In this document: one piece after another, positions 8,735 to 39,143 of the stretch
Numbering within the stretch: position 1 is the stretch's first letter
Layout of the letters: every line of letters begins with the position of its first letter
Assembly (NCBI GenBank): GCA_903851045.1
Contig: CAINNF010000016.1
Coordinates: forward strand, 1-40,876
Length of the DNA stretch: 40,876 nt
From: Candidatus Adlerbacteria bacterium
GTDB taxonomy: Bacteria; Patescibacteriota; Minisyncoccia; Phycocordibacterales; SBAW01
Reading direction: 5' to 3'
Notes under the pieces: model-generated
Told to the model about the DNA's origin: nothing
Seen by the model: the letters and a program-made list of their open reading frames with translations, nothing else
The model's database searches: none
Program-made: the position numbers and the translations under genes

Positions 8735-9748
8735 ATGTCGTATTTCTCTCCTAAACTGGGTATCGACCTGGGTACTGCTAACACGCTCGTCTTCGTGCCG
8801 GGTCGTGGCGTCGTGCTCAACGAGCCGTCGGTCGTCGCTATCTCGGAGATCGACAAGCGTATTCTCGCTGTTGGTGCGGAGGCAAAGGAGATGATCGGTC
8901 GCACGCCAGGCGAGATCATCGCGTATCGACCCATGAAGGACGGCGTTATCGCCGACTACCGCGTGACGCAGGCGATGCTGCGCTACTTCATCCACAAGGC
9001 GATGGGCCGCTACCAACTCTTCAAGCCCGAGGTGATGGTGTCAGTGCCGACCGGTGTCACTTCGACCGAGCGCCGCGCGGTCGTCGAAGCTGCCATTCGT
9101 GCCGGTGCGAAGAGCGCGTACGTCGTGAAGGAGTCGGTGCTCGCCGCGATCGGCGCGGGTATCCCCATTCACGAGGCGCGTGGCCACATGGTGATCGACA
9201 TCGGTGGTGGCACCTCGGACGTCGCGGTGATATCGCTGGGTGGTATCGTCGCCTCCGTCTCGGTGAAGTGCGCGGGCGACCGGCTCGACCACACCATCGC
9301 GGACTATATCAAGAAGACCTACAACCTCGGCATCGGCGACAAGACGGCCGAAAATATCAAAATTCAGATCGGTTCGGCGGTGCCGCTGGAAGAAGAGTTG
9401 GTGATGACGGTGCGCGGTCGCGATTTTATCTCCGGCCTCCCGCGCTCGTTCGAGCTGAAGTCCAACGATGTCGTAAAGGCGATCGGCAAGGACCTGCGCG
9501 AGATCATCAAAGCGATCCGCGACGTGCTCCAAGAGACACCGCCGGAGTTGGCCGCGGACATCATCGACCAGGGCATCATCATGACCGGCGGCACCTCCCA
9601 GTTGCGCAACTTCCCCGAGCTCGTGTTGCGACGCACTGGCGTCAAGGCGGTCGTCGCGGACAATGCGCTCTTCTGTGTCGCACGCGGCACCGGTATCGCG
9701 CTTGACCACCTCGAATCCTACAAGAAGGCCGTCATCGCGAAGCGGTAG
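8735..9748 (+). CDS. mreB: MreB-type actin, paralog 1
   Basis: A 337-aa actin-like protein that should form membrane-bound filaments guiding side-wall synthesis. GIDLGTANTLVF is phosphate motif 1, VIDIGGGTSDVAVI is phosphate motif 2 and GIIMTGGTSQLRNF is the adenosine motif. The start is the ATG at 8735; the track begins at an upstream GTG. TAGAAT lies 9 nt before it and there is no ribosome-binding site. It is separate from the mreBCD operon at 17295. The adenosine motif (TGGTSQLRNF) differs from the canonical TGGGALLKGLD of paralog 2, so the two may not be interchangeable. Confidence 0.95.
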   Translation: MSYFSPKLGIDLGTANTLVFVPGRGVVLNEPSVVAISEIDKRILAVGAEAKEMIGRTPGEIIAYRPMKDGVIADYRVTQAMLRYFIHKAMGRYQLFKPEVMVSVPTGVTSTERRAVVEAAIRAGAKSAYVVKESVLAAIGAGIPIHEARGHMVIDIGGGTSDVAVISLGGIVASVSVKCAGDRLDHTIADYIKKTYNLGIGDKTAENIKIQIGSAVPLEEELVMTVRGRDFISGLPRSFELKSNDVVKAIGKDLREIIKAIRDVLQETPPELAADIIDQGIIMTGGTSQLRNFPELVLRRTGVKAVVADNALFCVARGTGIALDHLESYKKAVIAKR

Positions 9749-16023: not shown

Positions 16024-17298
16024 ATGACCATACGCACGCATAGCATGAAACAATCACACTTGTTCACGAAGACGCGTCGAGAGGCGCCCAAGGACGAGGT
16101 TTCGAAGAACGCGCAGTTGCTAATCCGTGCCGGATACGTCCATAAAGAGATGGCGGGAGTGTACGCATATCTACCGCTCGGACTGCGGGTGCAGAACAAG
16201 ATCAAAGACATCGTACGCGAAGAGATGGACGCGATCGGCGGGGAGGAGATCATCATGACCAGTCTCCAGCGCAAGGAGTTGTGGGAAAAGACCAACCGCT
16301 GGGACGACGAGACGGTGGACGTATGGTTCAAGACCGAACTGAAGGCGGGCGGCGAGGTGGGGCTCGCCTGGTCGCACGAGGAGCCCATCGGCGAGATGAT
16401 GAAGAACTACGTATCGAGCTTCCGCGACCTGCCGATCTTCGTGTACCAGTTCCAGACCAAGTTGCGCAACGAACTGCGGGCCAAGTCCGGCATCATGCGT
16501 GGGCGCGAGTTCGTGATGAAGGACATGTACTCGTTCTGTCTTGGTGAAGAGGATCATACCCGTTTTTACAACAAGACCATCGATGCGTACCTGCGCGTGT
16601 ACGACCGGCTCGGTATCGGCGCGGACACGTTCGTGACGTTCGCCTCCGGTGGCGCGTTCACGCAGTTCAGCCATGAGTTCCAGACGATAGCCGAGACTGG
16701 CGAGGACGTCATCTACATCAATCGTGAGAAGAAGATCGCCATCAACGAAGAGGTGCTCAACGAGGAGACGCTCACGAAGCTCGGCATCACGCGCGTCGAC
16801 CTAGAAGAGGTGAAGACCGCCGAAGTAGGGAACATCTTCAATTTCGGTACACAAAAGGCAGAGGATCTCGGCCTCTTCTACAAGAACGAGAAAGGCGAGC
16901 AGGTGCCGGTGTGGATGGGTTCGTACGGCATCGGCATCACACGGGTGATGGGACTTCTCGCCGAGAAGTTCGCTGATGAGAAAGGTCTTGTGTGGCCGGA
17001 ACATATCGCGCCGTTTCGCGTACACCTCATCGAGCTTGGGAACGATAATGTCGATGTGCACAGCGAGGCGCAAGAGTTGTATCGCGAACTGAACGAGGCT
17101 AAGGTCGAGGTGTTGTGGGACGACCGCGACGTGCGCGCGGGAGAGAAGTTCGCCGATGCCGACCTGATCGGCATTCCGCTCCGGGTCGTCGTCTCGGAAA
17201 AGACGCTCGCGGCGGGTAAGTTCGAGTGTACCGAGCGTGCGACCGGTCACACGTCGCACAAGAGCATCTCCGAACTGATCGGGCATCTGACCGCATGA
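16024..17298 (+). CDS. proS: Prolyl-tRNA synthetase, short form
   Basis: Charges tRNA-Pro. The 424-aa class II synthetase has the motif 2 region FQTKLRNELRAKSGIMRGREFVMKDMYSF, motif 3 GSYGIGITRVMG, and a C-terminal anticodon-binding domain (FRVHLIELGND...EVLWDDRDVRAGEKFADADLIGIP). The roughly 180-residue editing insert found between motifs 2 and 3 in E. coli ProS is missing. It therefore cannot clear Ala-tRNA-Pro in cis. TACAAT ends 11 nt before the ATG at 16024; a second ATG at 16045 is possible. It overlaps mreB2 by 4 nt (ATGA). Confidence 0.97.
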   Translation: MTIRTHSMKQSHLFTKTRREAPKDEVSKNAQLLIRAGYVHKEMAGVYAYLPLGLRVQNKIKDIVREEMDAIGGEEIIMTSLQRKELWEKTNRWDDETVDVWFKTELKAGGEVGLAWSHEEPIGEMMKNYVSSFRDLPIFVYQFQTKLRNELRAKSGIMRGREFVMKDMYSFCLGEEDHTRFYNKTIDAYLRVYDRLGIGADTFVTFASGGAFTQFSHEFQTIAETGEDVIYINREKKIAINEEVLNEETLTKLGITRVDLEEVKTAEVGNIFNFGTQKAEDLGLFYKNEKGEQVPVWMGSYGIGITRVMGLLAEKFADEKGLVWPEHIAPFRVHLIELGNDNVDVHSEAQELYRELNEAKVEVLWDDRDVRAGEKFADADLIGIPLRVVVSEKTLAAGKFECTERATGHTSHKSISELIGHLTA

Positions 17299-18347
17299 AC
17301 AATCTTTTCGCTAACATATTTCCTCTTCTATCCAACGACGTTGGTATAGACCTTGGTACCGCGAACACGCTGGTGTACCTTCGTGGCAAGGGTATCGTGG
17401 TCAATGAACCGTCGGTGGTCGCGGTCAACCAGAAGACCTCGCAGGTGGTCGCGGTCGGTACCGCAGCGAAGGAGATGCTCGGTCGCACACCGGGGCACCT
17501 CGTCGCCGTGCGTCCGCTCGTCGACGGTGTCGTGTCGGACTTCGAGGCGACGGAGGAGATGCTCGCGTATCTCATCAAGCGCGCGCAAGGAGTGTCTCGG
17601 AAGATGCTCGGTCCCCGTGCTGTCATCGGCGTGCCCTCTGGTATCACTAACGTCGAGATGCGTGCGGTCAAAGATGCAGCCCAGAACGCCGGTGCCCGAG
17701 AGGTGTACATCGTCGAAGAACCCGTAGCCGCAGCGCTCGGGATCCGGCTTCCCATCCACGAAGCGATCGGCAGTATGGTGGTCGATATCGGTGGCGGCAC
17801 GACCGATATCGCGGTGCTGTCGCTGGGCGGTATCGTGCGCTCGAAGAATCTGCGTATCGCGGGCGACAAACTCAATGCGGACATCATCGGCTACATTCGC
17901 TCCGAGTTCAAGATACTGATAGGCGAGAAGACTTCCGAACAGGTGAAGATCGCTATCGGTTCGGTGATAGAGGACGGTGGACGCCTTGAAGCGGTCGTGC
18001 GCGGGCGGGACCTTATCACGGGACTGCCGCGCGAGATATTGCTTACGGATTCCGATATACGCGAAGCGATCTCGCAGTCGATAGACACTCTGGTCGAAAG
18101 TGTCCGCGAAGTGCTTGAAACGACGCCACCGGAGATCCTGTCCGACATCATGCACTCCGGCATCGTGCTCACGGGGGGTGGGGCGCTCCTGAAGGGCCTC
18201 GATGTCCTCCTGTCGCAGTGGCTGAAGGTGCCGGTCATCGTCGCGGACGATCCGCTGACGGCGGTCGCACGGGGGACCGGGGTGATACTCGAAAATCTCG
18301 AACTCCACCGGGATATTCTGCTCGAACATGAAGAGGACATCTCGTGA
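17295..18347 (+). CDS. mreB: MreB-type actin, paralog 2
   Basis: A 350-aa MreB with canonical motifs: VGIDLGTANTLVYLRGKGIVVNEPSVVA, the second phosphate motif VVDIGGGTTDIAVLSLGG, and GIVLTGGGALLKGLD. Its ATG overlaps the proS stop (ATGA), so translation is probably coupled. It is the first gene of an mreB-mreC-mreD-mrdA run that builds the elongation machinery. It differs from paralog 1 (8735) in the adenosine motif and C-terminus. An N-terminal hydrophobic stretch (NNLFANIFPLL) could be the membrane-binding helix. Confidence 0.97.
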   Translation: MNNLFANIFPLLSNDVGIDLGTANTLVYLRGKGIVVNEPSVVAVNQKTSQVVAVGTAAKEMLGRTPGHLVAVRPLVDGVVSDFEATEEMLAYLIKRAQGVSRKMLGPRAVIGVPSGITNVEMRAVKDAAQNAGAREVYIVEEPVAAALGIRLPIHEAIGSMVVDIGGGTTDIAVLSLGGIVRSKNLRIAGDKLNADIIGYIRSEFKILIGEKTSEQVKIAIGSVIEDGGRLEAVVRGRDLITGLPREILLTDSDIREAISQSIDTLVESVREVLETTPPEILSDIMHSGIVLTGGGALLKGLDVLLSQWLKVPVIVADDPLTAVARGTGVILENLELHRDILLEHEEDIS

Positions 18348-31604: not shown

Positions 31605-33164
31605 TTAGCCGAGCGTGTCCGTGGCGAGTATCTGCCACAGCAGTTGCTGGCTAAGCGGGAGCGTACCGAAGAACTTCTTCAGGCGCGCTTGTTCCCGGTT
31701 CAACATCCGCTCACGCGCTTGCGTGAGTTCGAGCAGTTTCAGGTGTCGCGGGCTCGCGGGTTCGATCTCGAAGATATGGAACCCATGCTCAGGGTGTTCG
31801 TGTACCAGACCTGCGGTGCGCAAGATCACGAGCGCGGCATTGACCCGTGACACGTACGCCTCGGAGTCTTTTATTTTTTCGGACTGCTCGGCACCTTGTC
31901 GGACCAGATGCATGAAGGTGCCGAGCTTGAAGGCGGTACGCTTGTCCGGTTCTTTCTTCAGGTACGCGCGCAGCAGGCGTGCGTGCACTGTTTCGACGAA
32001 TGGGTACGAGGGCGCGTTCCTTTCCAGCTGGAAGCGTTGCTGTGCGAACCCGTCTCCCAGGAGGCAGGTGGTGCACAAGGACGGCTTGCCGTCTCGACCC
32101 CCACGGCCGATCTGCTGCGCATAGTCGACCAAGGTCAGCGGAGGTTGCAGGTGTATCACCTGCCTGACATCCGGACGATCGATGCCCATCCCGAACGCCG
32201 ATGTGGCGAAGATGAGCGGACGACGGTCGTGCAAGAAACCATGCAGTGCCCGGCGTTTTACCTCATATGCCAGGTCAGCGTTGAAGGCGAAGGGTGTGTA
32301 CCCAAACTTATCACAGAGCCATCGTTGCGGTCCATCGTCGAAACGCTCGAAGTACCGGATGGTCCTGTCGACCGAGCCGCAGAACACGATCGTCGGTCCC
32401 GCGAACTCCTCGGTGCACAGCAGTCGTTCAAGCATCGCTATGCGCGCGGCACCGAGCGTCGGACCATGCGTGATCGGTGTGTTCGACGACTCCGCCGACA
32501 GAAGGAGGTTTTGCCGCAGAGGGTCGACCACGATCCGCACACACCCCTCGCGTAGCGGTAACCGCTGTCGGATATCGCTCTCGATCTTCGGGTCGATCGT
32601 CGCACTGAGCGCGAGACATTGGGGGATCTTCATCCGAGCGACGGCCAGCTTTATGCGCTGGTAGTCCGGACGAAAGCCGTCGCCCCAGGTGCTCACGCAG
32701 TGTGCCTCGTCCACCGCGACCATATCGAACTGTACGGTGCTGAACGTCTCCACGAACATCTTGCTTTGCAGCAGTTCCGGCGAGATGTACAGGAAACTCG
32801 GTTCGGTGCGTCTTGCTGTCTTGAAGTAGAACCGTACTGCCGTCTGTTGAGCCTCCGTCATGTGAGAGTGGAGTGCGAAGGCTTTGATCCCGCGCGCACG
32901 GAGCGCCTTGATCTGATCCTCCTGCAGCGCGATGAGTGGCGACACTACGAGCGTGCGGCAATTGCGGATGATCGTCGGGATCTGAAAGCAAGCCGACTTG
33001 CCTCCGCCCGTGGGCATGATGCACAGCACGTCATCGCCCCGCACGGCCGCCCTGATAGCGGCGTCCTGTGCCTCGAACAACCGTTCGAACCCAAAGACCG
33101 ACAGAGCAGCACGCATCCGGTCGGTGTCGACACCCCATCCAACGTCCTCTGACGTGATATCCAT
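31605..33164 (-). CDS. recQ: RecQ-like DNA helicase, minimal form
   Basis: A 3'-5' ATP-dependent DNA helicase of 519 aa. Walker A MPTGGGKSACFQ (50-61), DEAH (152-155) in the RecQ signature DEAHCVSTWGDGFRPDY, and LIFATSAFGMGIDRPDVRQVIH...QQIGRGGRDG (motifs V and VI). C-x2-C (CTTC) after motif VI may be part of a zinc site, but the full four-Cys RecQ zinc domain is not evident. There is no HRDC domain. ATG at 33164 with GGGAG upstream; TTGACA at 33213-33218. It has the accessory-type promoter rather than the leaderless type. Confidence 0.9.
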   Translation of the reverse strand: MDITSEDVGWGVDTDRMRAALSVFGFERLFEAQDAAIRAAVRGDDVLCIMPTGGGKSACFQIPTIIRNCRTLVVSPLIALQEDQIKALRARGIKAFALHSHMTEAQQTAVRFYFKTARRTEPSFLYISPELLQSKMFVETFSTVQFDMVAVDEAHCVSTWGDGFRPDYQRIKLAVARMKIPQCLALSATIDPKIESDIRQRLPLREGCVRIVVDPLRQNLLLSAESSNTPITHGPTLGAARIAMLERLLCTEEFAGPTIVFCGSVDRTIRYFERFDDGPQRWLCDKFGYTPFAFNADLAYEVKRRALHGFLHDRRPLIFATSAFGMGIDRPDVRQVIHLQPPLTLVDYAQQIGRGGRDGKPSLCTTCLLGDGFAQQRFQLERNAPSYPFVETVHARLLRAYLKKEPDKRTAFKLGTFMHLVRQGAEQSEKIKDSEAYVSRVNAALVILRTAGLVHEHPEHGFHIFEIEPASPRHLKLLELTQARERMLNREQARLKKFFGTLPLSQQLLWQILATDTLG

Positions 33165-34915: not shown

Positions 34916-34943
34916 CCATTTTTACCAAACATGTTTTGATCTG

Positions 34944-35015
34944 TGACCCTATGGGGAACCGAACCCCAATTTACGCTGTGAGAGGGCGCTGTCCTAACCG
35001 TTAGACGATAGGGTG
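34944..35015 (-). tRNA. tRNA-Glu-like gene, anticodon CTC, degenerate
   Basis: The minus strand folds as a cloverleaf of 72 nt. The D-arm is GTCT/GGAC with GG in the loop, the anticodon loop is CTCTCAC (anticodon CTC) and the T-arm is TGGGG/CCCCA. Odd features: position 1-72 is C-C, the last anticodon-stem pair is C-A, the T-loop reads TTCGGTT with G at position 58, and there is no encoded CCA. It is either a diverged tRNA-Glu or a decaying copy. Confidence 0.65.
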
Positions 35016-35084
35016 TAGTAGCAACAACACATCCTAACAGAAAAGAAAAGGGTAGGCAAAGCGCTTAACGGTTCTATTGACGTA

Positions 35085-35112
35085 TTGACAGTTGCGTGTT
35101 TGTGTGTATAAT
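35085..35112 (+). promoter_or_regulatory. Consensus promoter of the two-gene operon
   Basis: TTGACA, 16-nt spacer, TATAAT, both hexamers perfect. The leader is about 68 nt. Confidence 0.88.
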
Positions 35113-35186
35113 TTAGACGGAAAATGGTGGTATAAGGCCGCCATGCGTTCGGTTCCATAACAACACAGACAAGAGAAAGGTCTCAC

Positions 35187-36212
35187 ATGTCTCGGCTCAA
35201 GCTGTACGCTGTTGGCGAGCGCGAACTGTTCGTCATGGGTGGCGATCAAGTCGTCGCGACGGTCAAGCTTAACCATCAACGGTGCATGACCGAAGTTGTG
35301 CTCCGTGCTGACACCTCCGACGAGGTGCAGGTGGACACGCTTCGCCTCGTGGTGACGCGCGTGCACTGGTTCGTGCGCAGGCTCACTATCGATCAGATCA
35401 CCGCGCTCGATCGTGACGCTCTCACGACCGAACTGCGCGCCGTCGGCATCGATGTCACCGTCGCGCTCTACAGGAACGTGCGGGAGGCGATCGACGCTGC
35501 GGTCAAGAAGGTGGGTGTCCCGACCCTGCGCTACGAGCAGGTACCGACACACCTATATGCCGACGGTACACTCCGCTTGGAGTTCGCGGTGGATCAACCA
35601 GATCGCTTCGTCTTCTGGAGGTACGAGTCGCGCCCAAGAGGTGTTGATGAGCTGCATATCGTGCCGTTCTACCACCCTGCGATGAACGAGTGGAAGCAGG
35701 TCGGCATGGTCAACGGCGATACCGACTACCTCATTCGAGGCAGGGCTATCGGGCATTTCTACTGCCCGATGGACGCGCAGACGGGGAATGATCTTCCGTA
35801 CAAGGGCTCCACCTGGAGTCATGTGGATCACCCGTTTCGTGCCGCAGGTCAGACGATGCAGCTCGAGGTGGATATCACGAAGATGTGTTCCGCCGAAGGT
35901 GTCGACGAACTCGCGGAAGTGCTGCGCGCTTCGCTCTGTCTCGACGAGACGTACGTGGCGATCAGCGGCGGCTTTCAAGCTCCGCTAAAATACCCGGACA
36001 ATCGTCTGATCGAGACCAAGCGCAAGTCGCCATATCCGAATGCAGGTCGTGGTGGACATGCCGCTCGCGGCTCCGAAGCGCACTGTGTGTGGGCATATCG
36101 CACGCTCCAGGAAGAAGGAGTTCTTGACAGGTCATACGTCCCCGCGTGGTTCGTGCGGGAAGGATGGCTCGAGATCTACGCAGGTGCCGAAGTCAAACCC
36201 GGCATCTTCTGA
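35187..36212 (+). CDS. Protein of unknown function (341 aa), operon gene 1
   Basis: ATG at 35187 with AAAGG seven nt upstream. The soluble protein has a beta-rich N-terminal third (RELFVMGGDQVVATVKL), a helical linker (TALDRDALTTELRAVGIDVTVALYRNVREAIDAAVKK) and a C-terminal half with scattered His/Cys (HIVPFYHP, GHFYCPMDAQ, HCVWAYRTL). I do not recognise it. It has the strongest promoter in the window and is followed 38 nt later by a second unknown gene, so the two products probably work together. Confidence 0.75.
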   Translation: MSRLKLYAVGERELFVMGGDQVVATVKLNHQRCMTEVVLRADTSDEVQVDTLRLVVTRVHWFVRRLTIDQITALDRDALTTELRAVGIDVTVALYRNVREAIDAAVKKVGVPTLRYEQVPTHLYADGTLRLEFAVDQPDRFVFWRYESRPRGVDELHIVPFYHPAMNEWKQVGMVNGDTDYLIRGRAIGHFYCPMDAQTGNDLPYKGSTWSHVDHPFRAAGQTMQLEVDITKMCSAEGVDELAEVLRASLCLDETYVAISGGFQAPLKYPDNRLIETKRKSPYPNAGRGGHAARGSEAHCVWAYRTLQEEGVLDRSYVPAWFVREGWLEIYAGAEVKPGIF

Positions 36213-36250
36213 TCTTCGCCTGCAGTCAACAGAAGTAGGAGTACGAGATC

Positions 36251-37162
36251 ATGCAGATCGTGAATGTCTCTGTCGCCGAACGTCGTCGTTTCGTCCCCGT
36301 GCGGGGGTGGGACAGCGTCATCGCAGCACTCACGCTGTTCGGTAACGGCTACTCTCGTGCCGCGTGGAAGGCGGAGGACGACGTCTTGGAATCGATCGCA
36401 GAGAGTGCGGGCGACCTCGGCGCCCTTCTCTTCATACTCGGCTCACCCGAGGCGGGCAAGCGCAGCAATCTCGTCGACAAGCTGCTCCTTGAAGCTGGCC
36501 AGACGCTCGAATATCGTCCGAGGTTCTCGCGGAGTTATGACTACGATGGCGCGGGTACGCCATTCATGAAGACGACCGTCGACATCAACAATATTGGTGA
36601 CGACATGTACTGCATCGGCCTCAATGCCGCCTATGTGGGCGACGAGCCCGAAGCGGGACTCGCCGAGTATCTCGGCATCCCGCGCACACTGCTTTCGTGC
36701 ACCGTCGAAGTCGAGACCAACCCGGTGGCGGGCAACCGCTTCGAGTTCGACTTCGAGCCTATACTGCGCAGGCTCGAGTCGGTGCTCAATACCAGAAAGA
36801 TCACCGGCATGCAGGTCGCGAGAGCGATGATGCGCCATGGTGACGAAGTCGGAGTCTTAACGCTCGACGAGATTCGTGGCCTGTGCGTGCGGATCCAGCT
36901 GGGCCGCGTCGAGCGTCGCATGAAGTTCGATCGTCGCACTGGCACGGAGCGTGACACGTGGTCCATCGACGGCCGCCTGCTCTCCGGCGAGCTGAGGCGG
37001 GACTATGGCGCGGAGAATGAGGACGCGAAAGCGACCCCGACCCTCGAGATCGTCGTCTCGTCGGCTCAGCGATCCAACTGGGAGGCTGATCCAATCTGGA
37101 AGTTCGAGCAGCAGCAGGCTGCGATCCTGCTCGCGCAGCGGATCGCCAGAGTGCTGAAGTAA
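36251..37162 (+). CDS. Protein of unknown function (303 aa), operon gene 2
   Basis: ATG at 36251 with TAGGAG ten nt upstream. Soluble. GSPEAGKRSN looks a little like a P-loop but lacks GK[ST], so I do not call an ATPase. The rest (TTVDINNIGDDMYCIGLNAAYVGD, EVETNPVAGNRFEFDFEPILRRLESVL) suggests an alpha/beta protein. A strong terminator follows. No family recognised. Confidence 0.75.
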   Translation: MQIVNVSVAERRRFVPVRGWDSVIAALTLFGNGYSRAAWKAEDDVLESIAESAGDLGALLFILGSPEAGKRSNLVDKLLLEAGQTLEYRPRFSRSYDYDGAGTPFMKTTVDINNIGDDMYCIGLNAAYVGDEPEAGLAEYLGIPRTLLSCTVEVETNPVAGNRFEFDFEPILRRLESVLNTRKITGMQVARAMMRHGDEVGVLTLDEIRGLCVRIQLGRVERRMKFDRRTGTERDTWSIDGRLLSGELRRDYGAENEDAKATPTLEIVVSSAQRSNWEADPIWKFEQQQAAILLAQRIARVLK

Positions 37163-37185
37163 CACGGCTCTATTGTGCCCACGGG

Positions 37186-37224
37186 GCGCCCACGGTTTCA
37201 CCACCGCTGGGCGCTCTTTTTATT
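37186..37224 (+). terminator. Rho-independent terminator
   Basis: GCGCCCA / TGGGCGC with an inner CGG/CCG pair, followed by TCTTTTTATT. Confidence 0.9.
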
Positions 37225-37237
37225 ACATGTATCATGG

Positions 37238-37243
37238 TAAAAT
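37238..37243 (+). promoter_or_regulatory. Extended -10 of the MBL-fold gene
   Basis: TGGTAAAAT ends 6 nt before the ATG at 37250: a leaderless layout without Shine-Dalgarno site. Confidence 0.65.
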
Positions 37244-37249
37244 ATATCC

Positions 37250-37882
37250 ATGCATATCACCAAATTGGGTCACTGCTGCCTCCTTGTCGAGACCAAGGGC
37301 AAGCGCATCCTCACCGACCCGGGGAGCTACACCGTGGAGGCTCAGTCGCGCCTCATCAACATCGACTACATCCTCTTTACCCACGAGCATCAGGACCACT
37401 ATCACCTCGAGTCCCTGCGGACACTCCTCGCCAACAACCCCCAGGCCCTCGTGTACGCCAACAACTCGGTCAGCGCGCTCCTGTTGGCTGAGGGAATTGC
37501 GCATACACAAGTCAATCATGGCGACCGCATCTCGCTCGGCGAGGTCGTCGTGCGCGGCATCGGCGAGAAGCATGCGCAGATGCACAGCTCTATCCCACTA
37601 TCATCCAACATGGGCTATCTCATCGACGAGCGCCTGTGGTACCCCGGAGACGCCTTCACCGACCCCAAGCTCGCGGTCGAAATCCTGGCGCTCCCGGTCT
37701 CGGGCCCATGGATGAAGATAAGCGAAGTGATAGACTACGCGCTCCACCTCAACCCCAAAAAAGCCTTCCCCGTCCACGACGCCACCCGCTTCGGCAGCGC
37801 CCACACCCTCCCCACCAAGATCCTCGACCCGAGAGGCATAGAGTTCGTCGTGATGGTCGAAGGGGATACGAGGGAGTTCTAA
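37250..37882 (+). CDS. MBL-fold metal-dependent hydrolase (UlaG/UPF0173-like)
   Basis: A 210-aa metallo-beta-lactamase-fold protein. THEHQDHYH gives the HxHxDH metal site (H45, H47, D49, H50), with further ligands likely in GEKHAQMHSSIP, LWYPGDAF and PVHDA. This single-domain type is close to UlaG-like and UPF0173 hydrolases; the substrate is unknown. It is the only gene in the right-hand accessory region with the leaderless start typical of core genes. Confidence 0.88.
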   Translation: MHITKLGHCCLLVETKGKRILTDPGSYTVEAQSRLINIDYILFTHEHQDHYHLESLRTLLANNPQALVYANNSVSALLLAEGIAHTQVNHGDRISLGEVVVRGIGEKHAQMHSSIPLSSNMGYLIDERLWYPGDAFTDPKLAVEILALPVSGPWMKISEVIDYALHLNPKKAFPVHDATRFGSAHTLPTKILDPRGIEFVVMVEGDTREF

Positions 37883-37890
37883 AGACAAGG

Positions 37891-38346
37891 TCACCATATC
37901 CAATTCATCATAAAAGTAAACAGTGGCTCTGGTATGTTGTTGCCGGCTATGCCATGTCCTGTTTGGTATCGTAGAACGACGTTGAAGATTATTATGCCGA
38001 GAGAAAGAGATAATCTGAGTCCTGAGACGACGAAAGAACTTCTGATAAAACCAAATAGGTATAGTAGTAATGCAGAGACAAAGATTACCGGTCCAGCGAT
38101 AATAAGTGGCAATAGTTCAGTTAATATGTGAGTTGATTGGGGAGCGGGACCGTCACAAGCAAATAGTAAGATTGGTGTTAGAGGCGGTGTCCCAGAATTG
38201 CAAGAAAGTGACACCCCAACAACCATTGTGATAAGCAGGAGGTATGGGATAGTATCAAGACCCAACAAAATAAGACACCCACGAGCAAGTTTCTTTATTA
38301 GAGAGGCTTGTTTGTTTAACGTAACAACAGGAATCTGCGGCGGCAT
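37891..38346 (-). CDS. Membrane protein of unknown function (151 aa)
   Basis: Three or four membrane helices: CLILLGLDTIPYLLLITMVVGVSL, ILTELLPLIIAGPVIFVSALLLYLFGFI and VSGLRLSLSLGIIIFNVVL. I use the ATG at 38346; a GTG at 38352 is only 4 nt from the -10. TGGTATACT ends 10 nt before the ATG. The DNA is clearly more AT-rich than its surroundings, which hints at a different origin. No family recognised. Confidence 0.65.
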   Translation of the reverse strand: MPPQIPVVTLNKQASLIKKLARGCLILLGLDTIPYLLLITMVVGVSLSCNSGTPPLTPILLFACDGPAPQSTHILTELLPLIIAGPVIFVSALLLYLFGFIRSSFVVSGLRLSLSLGIIIFNVVLRYQTGHGIAGNNIPEPLFTFMMNWIW

Positions 38347-38356
38347 ACTCACCTCA

Positions 38357-38365
38357 AGTATACCA
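38357..38365 (-). promoter_or_regulatory. Extended -10 of the membrane-protein gene
   Basis: TGGTATACT on the minus strand, 10 nt upstream of the ATG. Confidence 0.6.
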
Positions 38366-38372
38366 TCAAGTT

Positions 38373-38394
38373 TGTGACCTTATGGGGAATCGGA
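38373..38394 (-). repeat. Partial copy of the tRNA-Glu 3' end
   Basis: TGTGACCTTATGGGGAATCGGA matches the tRNA-Glu 3' end at 34942-34963 (TGTGACCCTATGGGGAACCGAA) at 19 of 22 positions, in the same orientation. It resembles the far end of an integrated element, or a tRNA relic. Confidence 0.5.
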
Positions 38395-38410: not shown

Positions 38411-38422
38411 TAATTGGGGAGT
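38411..38422 (+). repeat. Direct repeat left of the IS30 relic
   Basis: TAATTGGGGAGT, repeated exactly at 38997-39008, where homology of the transposase relic ends. The upstream flank has three close copies of ATAATTG. Confidence 0.6.
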
Positions 38423-38514
38423 CTTAAATTCTAATCTGAAACGCACCACATAGAAACACACAATACCCGTCGGGATACACTGGATGTGCTTAGTAGCCAA
38501 TATATACGACAGGT

Positions 38515-38999
38515 ATGTGTATCACACAGCGTACTCGCAGTAGTCATCTCTCGCAAGAAGATCGTGCGGTTATTCAGGCTCTGCACGTGCGAGGAGAAAG
38601 TCTCCGCACGATCGCACAGAGTATCGCAAAACATCACTCGACCGTGAGTCGAGAGTTGCGACGCAACAAGGGTTCGTCAGGAGCGTACACTGCTCATCTG
38701 GCACATCAGAAGTATCTCCACAGACTGGTGACTGGTCACCCGCGGTCATTGCACACTTCTCCGGTCGTGTCTGCCACCAGACTATCTACACGTGGATCTG
38801 GCGGTCACGCCCCGCTCTACGCCAGCTGTTACCGCACTGTGGTAAGTATCGCAGACGTTACGGTACCAGCACAGCACCATCAAAACACTGGAATACGCGC
38901 ATACGCACCATCGCGACAAGACCGAAGCACATAGAGACGCGAGCTGAACTCGGCCACTACGAAGGTGACACTGTGTTGCTTAATCGCGCGACCGGGTAA
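38515..38999 (+). pseudogene. IS30-family transposase relic, frameshifted and truncated
   Basis: The first frame (MCITQRTRSSHLSQEDRAVIQALHVRGESLRTIAQSIAKHHSTVSRELRRNKG) is the N-terminal HTH of IS30 transposases. After about 38730 the homology continues in another frame: DWSPAVIAHFSGRVCHQTIYTWIWRS, then ...KYRRRYGT... and ELGHYEGDTVLLNRATG, which contains the first catalytic Asp. It then stops. The last two catalytic residues of the DDE set are missing and there is at least one frameshift near the doubled GACTGGT, so it is dead. Confidence 0.88.
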
Positions 39000-39008
39000 T
39001 TGGGGAGT
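38997..39008 (+). repeat. Direct repeat right of the IS30 relic
   Basis: TAATTGGGGAGT, identical to 38411-38422. Its first TAA is the stop that ends the relic's reading frame. Confidence 0.6.
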
Positions 39009-39084
39009 GGTCCGATTAATTTAGTTTTTTTGTGTTGTCATATTTAGCTGGGGGATGGAGGAAAGCGGGAAGAATAATATGTAA

Positions 39085-39118
39085 GAAAAAAGCACGACCC
39101 GGGGAGGGGTCGTGCTTT
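39085..39118 (-). terminator. Rho-independent terminator
   Basis: AAAGCACGACCC / GGGTCGTGCTTT followed by further Ts on the minus strand. Confidence 0.9.
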
Positions 39119-39143
39119 GGGGGTTGGGGAGTGGGAGTGGCGG

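Follow-up and report, generated by a model that had tools for sequence, protein, structure and literature searches.

A degenerate tRNA-Glu duplicate, a probable attachment-site relic and a serine-recombinase element at the intact tRNA gene of a Candidatus Adlerbacteria bacterium

Introduction

Genomic islands integrated at tRNA genes, as described for the Islander/TIGER type, are bordered by direct repeats of the tRNA 3′ end, and in such insertions the displaced copy of this end is expected downstream of the tRNA. SLP1-like elements contain a full tRNA in their attP, so that one of their borders would be marked by a second full tRNA, and they carry tyrosine integrases of their own. Integration into tRNA 3′ ends is usually attributed to tyrosine integrases, as stated for ICEs (PMC4701971). 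In streptococci, ICEs that encode a single serine integrase target the protein gene rumA; one direct repeat resides in the target and the other at the 3′ end of the integrase gene, whose tail is swapped upon integration (PMC4701971). Similarly, integration alters the C-terminus of mycobacteriophage repressors (PMC4557955). Our search for papers on serine recombinases and tRNA genes in Patescibacteria, the candidate phyla radiation or Saccharibacteria has retrieved nothing useful.

Here we have investigated a stretch of 40,876 nucleotides (the window), which constitutes the entire contig C16 of a genome of 1.25 Mb in 25 contigs. Judging by size and gene content, this genome probably belongs to the Patescibacteria. 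A sequence-only reading had assigned a degenerate tRNA-Glu and a displaced copy of its 3′ end as brackets of 3.4 kb of DNA and had suspected integration at the tRNA. Like islands of the Islander/TIGER type, the window contains the tRNA 3′ end in direct repeat, but here the displaced copy precedes the tRNA at its 5′ side, and an integrase is absent. A full fit to this type is found in an element on a second contig of the same genome, C18, which was analyzed as locus L007 (C18:103000-121959).

Results

The tRNA-Glu(CTC) of the window is called on the minus strand by both ARAGORN and Rfam (34943/34944-35015). Its score of 45 bits is the second lowest among the 50 tRNA matches of the genome, compared to 60.7 bits for the tRNA-Glu(CTC) of C18, which bears out its earlier description as degenerate and at the same time answers the question of whether another gene of this anticodon exists, since the C18 copy is intact. 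In a numbering of tRNA positions that was assigned by hand, the window tRNA contains CA at positions 1-2, A at position 39 and G at position 58, compared to GG, G and A in C18 and the congeners, which breaks one pair of the acceptor and one of the anticodon stem and alters a conserved contact of the T-loop (T54-A58). It thus resembles tRNA pseudogenes, as a duplicate whose conserved pairs are broken while an intact counterpart exists elsewhere in the genome, but it differs from them in still being recognized by both programs and is best considered a putative pseudogene. In a BLASTN comparison, 34942-35059 of the window is 94% identical to L007 6541-6424, a region that covers the tRNA and about 44 bases of its leader, and the similarity stops near both edges of this unit. 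A pattern of the leader has found no match in GTDB contigs. Since yqeY or mpg adjoins tRNA-Glu(CTC) in many congeners as it does on C18, the latter is by synteny the ancestral locus and the copy in the window a decaying duplicate. In some congener tRNA-Glu genes (L009, L011), the start of the tRNA (GGCCCTA) is repeated 60-70 bp upstream and followed by a hairpin-like sequence.

The 22-mer TGTGACCCTATGGGGAACCGAA at the 3′ end of the window tRNA (34942-34963) recurs in the same orientation at 38373-38394 with 19 identical positions and three mismatches, which confirms a repeat that had been noticed at the outset, and no second copy was obtained in 100 shuffles of the window. Allowing for up to two mismatches, its 20-base core is found at four sites in the genome (a reversed control yields none), which are the two tRNA-Glu genes in the window and on C18 and one displaced copy on each of the two contigs. 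In a direct comparison, the copy at 38373 shares 20 of 22 positions with the intact C18 tRNA versus 19 of 22 with the window tRNA, and it is thus not derived from the latter in its present decayed form. Because the tRNA is encoded on the minus strand, with its 3′ end at 34943, the copy at 38373 lies on its 5′ side and the segment between the repeats includes the tRNA body and its leader. The pair therefore does not show the geometry of an insertion at a tRNA 3′ end.

The genes between the repeats (Table 1) provide little indication of mobility. Scans with Pfam, NCBIfam, PHROGs and PADLOC have recognized neither a recombinase nor another mobile-element protein among them, in line with the earlier remark that no integrase is seen. 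As proposed at that stage, the segment contains an operon with a consensus promoter, which is divergent from the tRNA and whose two orphan proteins belong to no family, and an AT-rich membrane gene. The first of the orphans (at 35187) has no relative in the 59 relatives searched or in GTDB contigs, neither it nor the second (at 36251) matches IMG/VR, and AlphaFold models of both, run from single sequences, are uninformative (mean pLDDT of 42 and 36). The GC content of both orphan genes and the MBL gene (0.60-0.62) resembles that of the core genes of the window (0.57-0.62). The composition along the segment is uneven, with the membrane gene next to the displaced copy being its sole AT-rich gene. 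No empty site could be identified in 34 congeners, where neither the orphans and the MBL gene nor SppA and RecQ, which neighbor the segment, share a common neighborhood. With the copy on the 5′ side of the tRNA, no recombinase inside and a mostly host-like GC content, the bracketed 3.4 kb is probably not a simple tRNA-integrated island. Outside of this segment, the window encodes a RecQ-family helicase (31605-33164) that resembles DpdF of defence systems and for which congeners offer only weaker helicase matches, except for partial ones in G027, and two MreB-like genes (8738-9748 and 17298-18347).

On the right side of the displaced copy, the relic of an IS30-like transposase ends where a repeat of 134 bp starts. 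This repeat exists in only two copies genome-wide, which are 90% identical (38994-39127 in the window and C18:120898-121027), and both are located within 0.8 kb of a displaced tRNA copy, which seems unlikely to be a coincidence. Repeat and displaced copy share the same strand relation at both loci, in opposite order. A pattern for the end of the repeat has matched the window copy alone. The sequence AATTGGGGAGT flanks the IS30 relic at 38411-38423 and 38997-39008, the second occurrence being at the start of the 134-bp repeat, and the pair is perhaps a target duplication or the end of a repeat.

The region surrounding the intact tRNA-Glu(CTC) on C18 displays the classic geometry, with the intact tRNA at one end and the displaced 3′ copy at the other. 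The tRNA is adjoined by a recombinase of 599 residues, whose reading frame ends within the tRNA in antisense direction. The long protein combines the domains of large serine recombinases, PF00239 (Resolvase) and PF07508 (Recombinase), both above cut-off, with a zinc ribbon just below its cut-off and a match to the phrog_95 integrase. Matches among the cargo include AIPR/AbiU, a C5 cytosine methylase, an MBL-fold protein of the candidate defence family PDC-M48B and a bPH-domain protein, and the GC content of the element is 0.48, compared to 0.57-0.62 in the core genes of the window. Judged from its sequence, it is a textbook tRNA-integrated element, for which excision is predicted. The predicted junction of the circle is GACCGATCCCCATAGGGTCACAAGTTGG. 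With the att halves joined in silico, the recombinase would end with ...TCDPMGIGHK in the circle, compared to ...TCDPMGNRTPIYAVRGRCPNR in the integrated form, and integration would thus swap its tail. In this respect the element resembles the streptococcal ICEs at rumA, as its direct repeats are likewise divided between the target and the 3′-terminal part of the serine integrase gene, but its target is a tRNA and no conjugation genes were recognized among the C18 proteins scanned. Neither the recombinase nor a pattern of the displaced core has found a match in viral contigs, and a third att-like site (L007 18762, 14/20) is at chance level. The genome thus contains a predicted integrase for tRNA-Glu(CTC), which is absent from the window.

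The arrangement found on C18 recurs in the genus. Recombinases that are 52-54% identical to that of C18 reside at tRNA-Glu(TTC) in G020, G024 and G026. In a sample of about 43 distinct ORFs of at least 300 residues (merged by hand from 48 rows with duplicates), 21 run into a tRNA in antisense, 18 of them ending inside and three just past it, a fraction that is a biased estimate since the sample was drawn by similarity to a single recombinase. The tRNAs concerned span 15 anticodons, and ten of the respective recombinases that were tested contain the expected domains. Such a continuation of the frame implies that the tRNA supplies the tail of the recombinase in its integrated form. In G026, the final 81 bp of the recombinase are repeated 8.2 kb further on, where they are joined to other sequence that has only AGGTCAC in common with the tRNA end, which suggests a tandem insertion. 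A candidate for a distal attR in G024 (L118 10652, 14/20) was not accepted.

Table 1. Location of features in the window, on contig C18 and in congeners.
Feature	Location	Strand	Basis or remark
Degenerate tRNA-Glu(CTC), duplicate of intact C18 gene	34943..35015	-	C1:C72 and C31:A39 mismatches, A58G
Promoter leader of window tRNA, duplicated along with it	35016..35059	-	BLASTN; similar to L007 6424-6467
Promoter-like site of orphan operon, TTGACA-16-TATAAT	35085..35112	+	direct sequence reading
Orphan protein, 341 aa, no family	35187..36212	+	family scans, relative searches
Orphan protein, 303 aa, no family	36251..37162	+	family scans, relative searches
MBL-fold metal-dependent hydrolase	37250..37882	+	family scan, congener search; congener homologues in other surroundings
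AT-rich membrane-type protein, GC 0.42	37891..38352	-	composition; start adjoins displaced copy
Displaced copy of tRNA-Glu 3′ end, probable attachment-site relic	38373..38394	-	repeat comparison, genome-wide core count
IS30-like transposase relic, frameshifted and truncated	38515..38995	+	HTH_38 match; weak below-cut-off IS30 match; sequence
Two-copy repeat, 134 bp	38994..39127	+	other copy 0.7 kb beyond C18 displaced tRNA copy
10.7-kb element at intact tRNA-Glu(CTC)	L007 6468-17230 = C18:109467-120229		large serine recombinase and defence-like cargo
Intact tRNA-Glu(CTC)	L007 6468-6540 = C18:109467-109539
Displaced tRNA 3′ copy, C18	L007 17215-17230		10.7 kb downstream of tRNA
Recombinase running into tRNA antisense	L007, L060-L063, L070, L071, L074, L075, L081, L083, L119, L120, L123, L130, L134, L139, L143, L145, L147, L149
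attP-like junction via AGGTCAC	L119 reverse complement, position 8922		8.2 kb from tRNA-Glu(TTC)

Discussion

The suspicion of a tRNA-targeted integration, which was initially raised for the window, has gained support from the serine-recombinase element of C18, where the intact tRNA-Glu(CTC) is accompanied by a displaced copy of the same sequence, but it is not supported for 34944-38394 itself, where the side of the copy, the missing recombinase and the mostly host-like GC content argue against an insert. Instead, we lean towards an explanation in which the window contains a decaying tRNA-Glu duplicate in proximity to the relic of an attachment site. The window tRNA, a duplicate comprising promoter leader and tRNA, would be redundant and decay because the intact copy on C18 does the work, and the route by which it may have reached the window is a conjectural part of this explanation. 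The copy at 38373 is most likely the leftover attachment site of a type of large-serine-recombinase element whose target is the 3′ end of this tRNA. When such an element is functional, as represented on C18, its recombinase would join the tRNA 3′ end (attB) to a similar core in the circle (attP), with the result that the intact tRNA adjoins the recombinase gene while the opposite end of the element carries a displaced 3′ copy. The window would have kept only the displaced half, located beside the AT-rich gene, the IS30 relic and the 134-bp repeat, whose second copy neighbors the displaced copy of C18.

The assignment of an attachment-site relic is favored by the restriction of the core to two tRNAs and two displaced copies and by the presence on C18 of a serine recombinase and a displaced copy in classic geometry. 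The explanation as a whole draws on the close similarity of the duplicated tRNA and leader, with changes that have no parallel in C18 and the congeners, on the neighborhood of yqeY and mpg, on the related recombinases at tRNA-Glu in three congeners, on the confinement of the 134-bp repeat to the vicinity of both displaced copies and on the AT-rich patch around the copy in the window. Conversely, no remnant of a recombinase is found near 38373, the arms to the left and right of this site do not clearly correspond to the arms of the C18 attP, the order of 134-bp repeat and displaced copy is reversed between the two loci, and the ancestral state of the region is found in no relative.

Among the alternatives, an origin of the duplicate tRNA and the 22-base copy in separate events that do not involve site-specific recombination, such as illegitimate or IS-driven duplications of short tracts, appears unlikely, yet is to be taken seriously. 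It would be compatible with the IS30 relic and the repeats close by and with a copy that encompasses just 22 bases with no adjoining recombinase, but it would not account for the coincidence of the copied stretch with precisely that tRNA 3′ end which serves as core of the C18 element, nor for the lack of further stray copies in the genome. We consider it improbable that 34943-38394 is an inserted non-autonomous cassette with its own full tRNA-Glu and leader in its attP, which would have entered an older bare core, now split into the outer halves of the two copies, and which would have been mobilized in trans, with the C18 recombinase as one candidate. Such a cassette would resemble SLP1-like elements in placing a further full tRNA at one border, and the flanking direct repeats, the presence in the genome of a recombinase for this tRNA that could act in trans, the lack of both orphan genes in the relatives searched and the freedom of a redundant tRNA to decay would all be in agreement with it. 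However, SLP1-like elements encode their own tyrosine integrase and none is found in the window, there is no known cargo, three of the four bracketed genes have a host-like GC content within a segment of uneven composition, and the outer half at 38394 is not part of a tRNA body, which would make the target an unusual bare core. Its specific version, where the tRNA-Glu is the attP of a cassette moved in trans by the C18 serine recombinase, and the duplicate thus a recycled attachment site instead of a working gene, we find slightly more doubtful still. It is very unlikely that C16 originates from another organism and was mis-binned with C18, which would turn the window tRNA into the sole tRNA-Glu(CTC) of its genome: the large size of the genome compared to the 34 congeners (0.5-0.9 Mb) would conform with such an error, but the listed contamination is 0.29% despite many housekeeping ORFs in the window, the GC content of its core agrees with that of the operon, and a broken terminal pair along with A58G would be surprising in the only tRNA-Glu(CTC) of an organism. 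Finally, a chance match, as conceivable for 22 bases with three mismatches, is hardly credible in light of the window shuffles and the genome-wide reversed control.

Direct repeats at tRNA genes are routinely taken as borders of islands, and the described case illustrates that strand geometry and the whole genome need to be checked first. Beyond this locus, the recombinases of the genus, if active, would constitute a set of serine integrases that differ in their tRNA targets.
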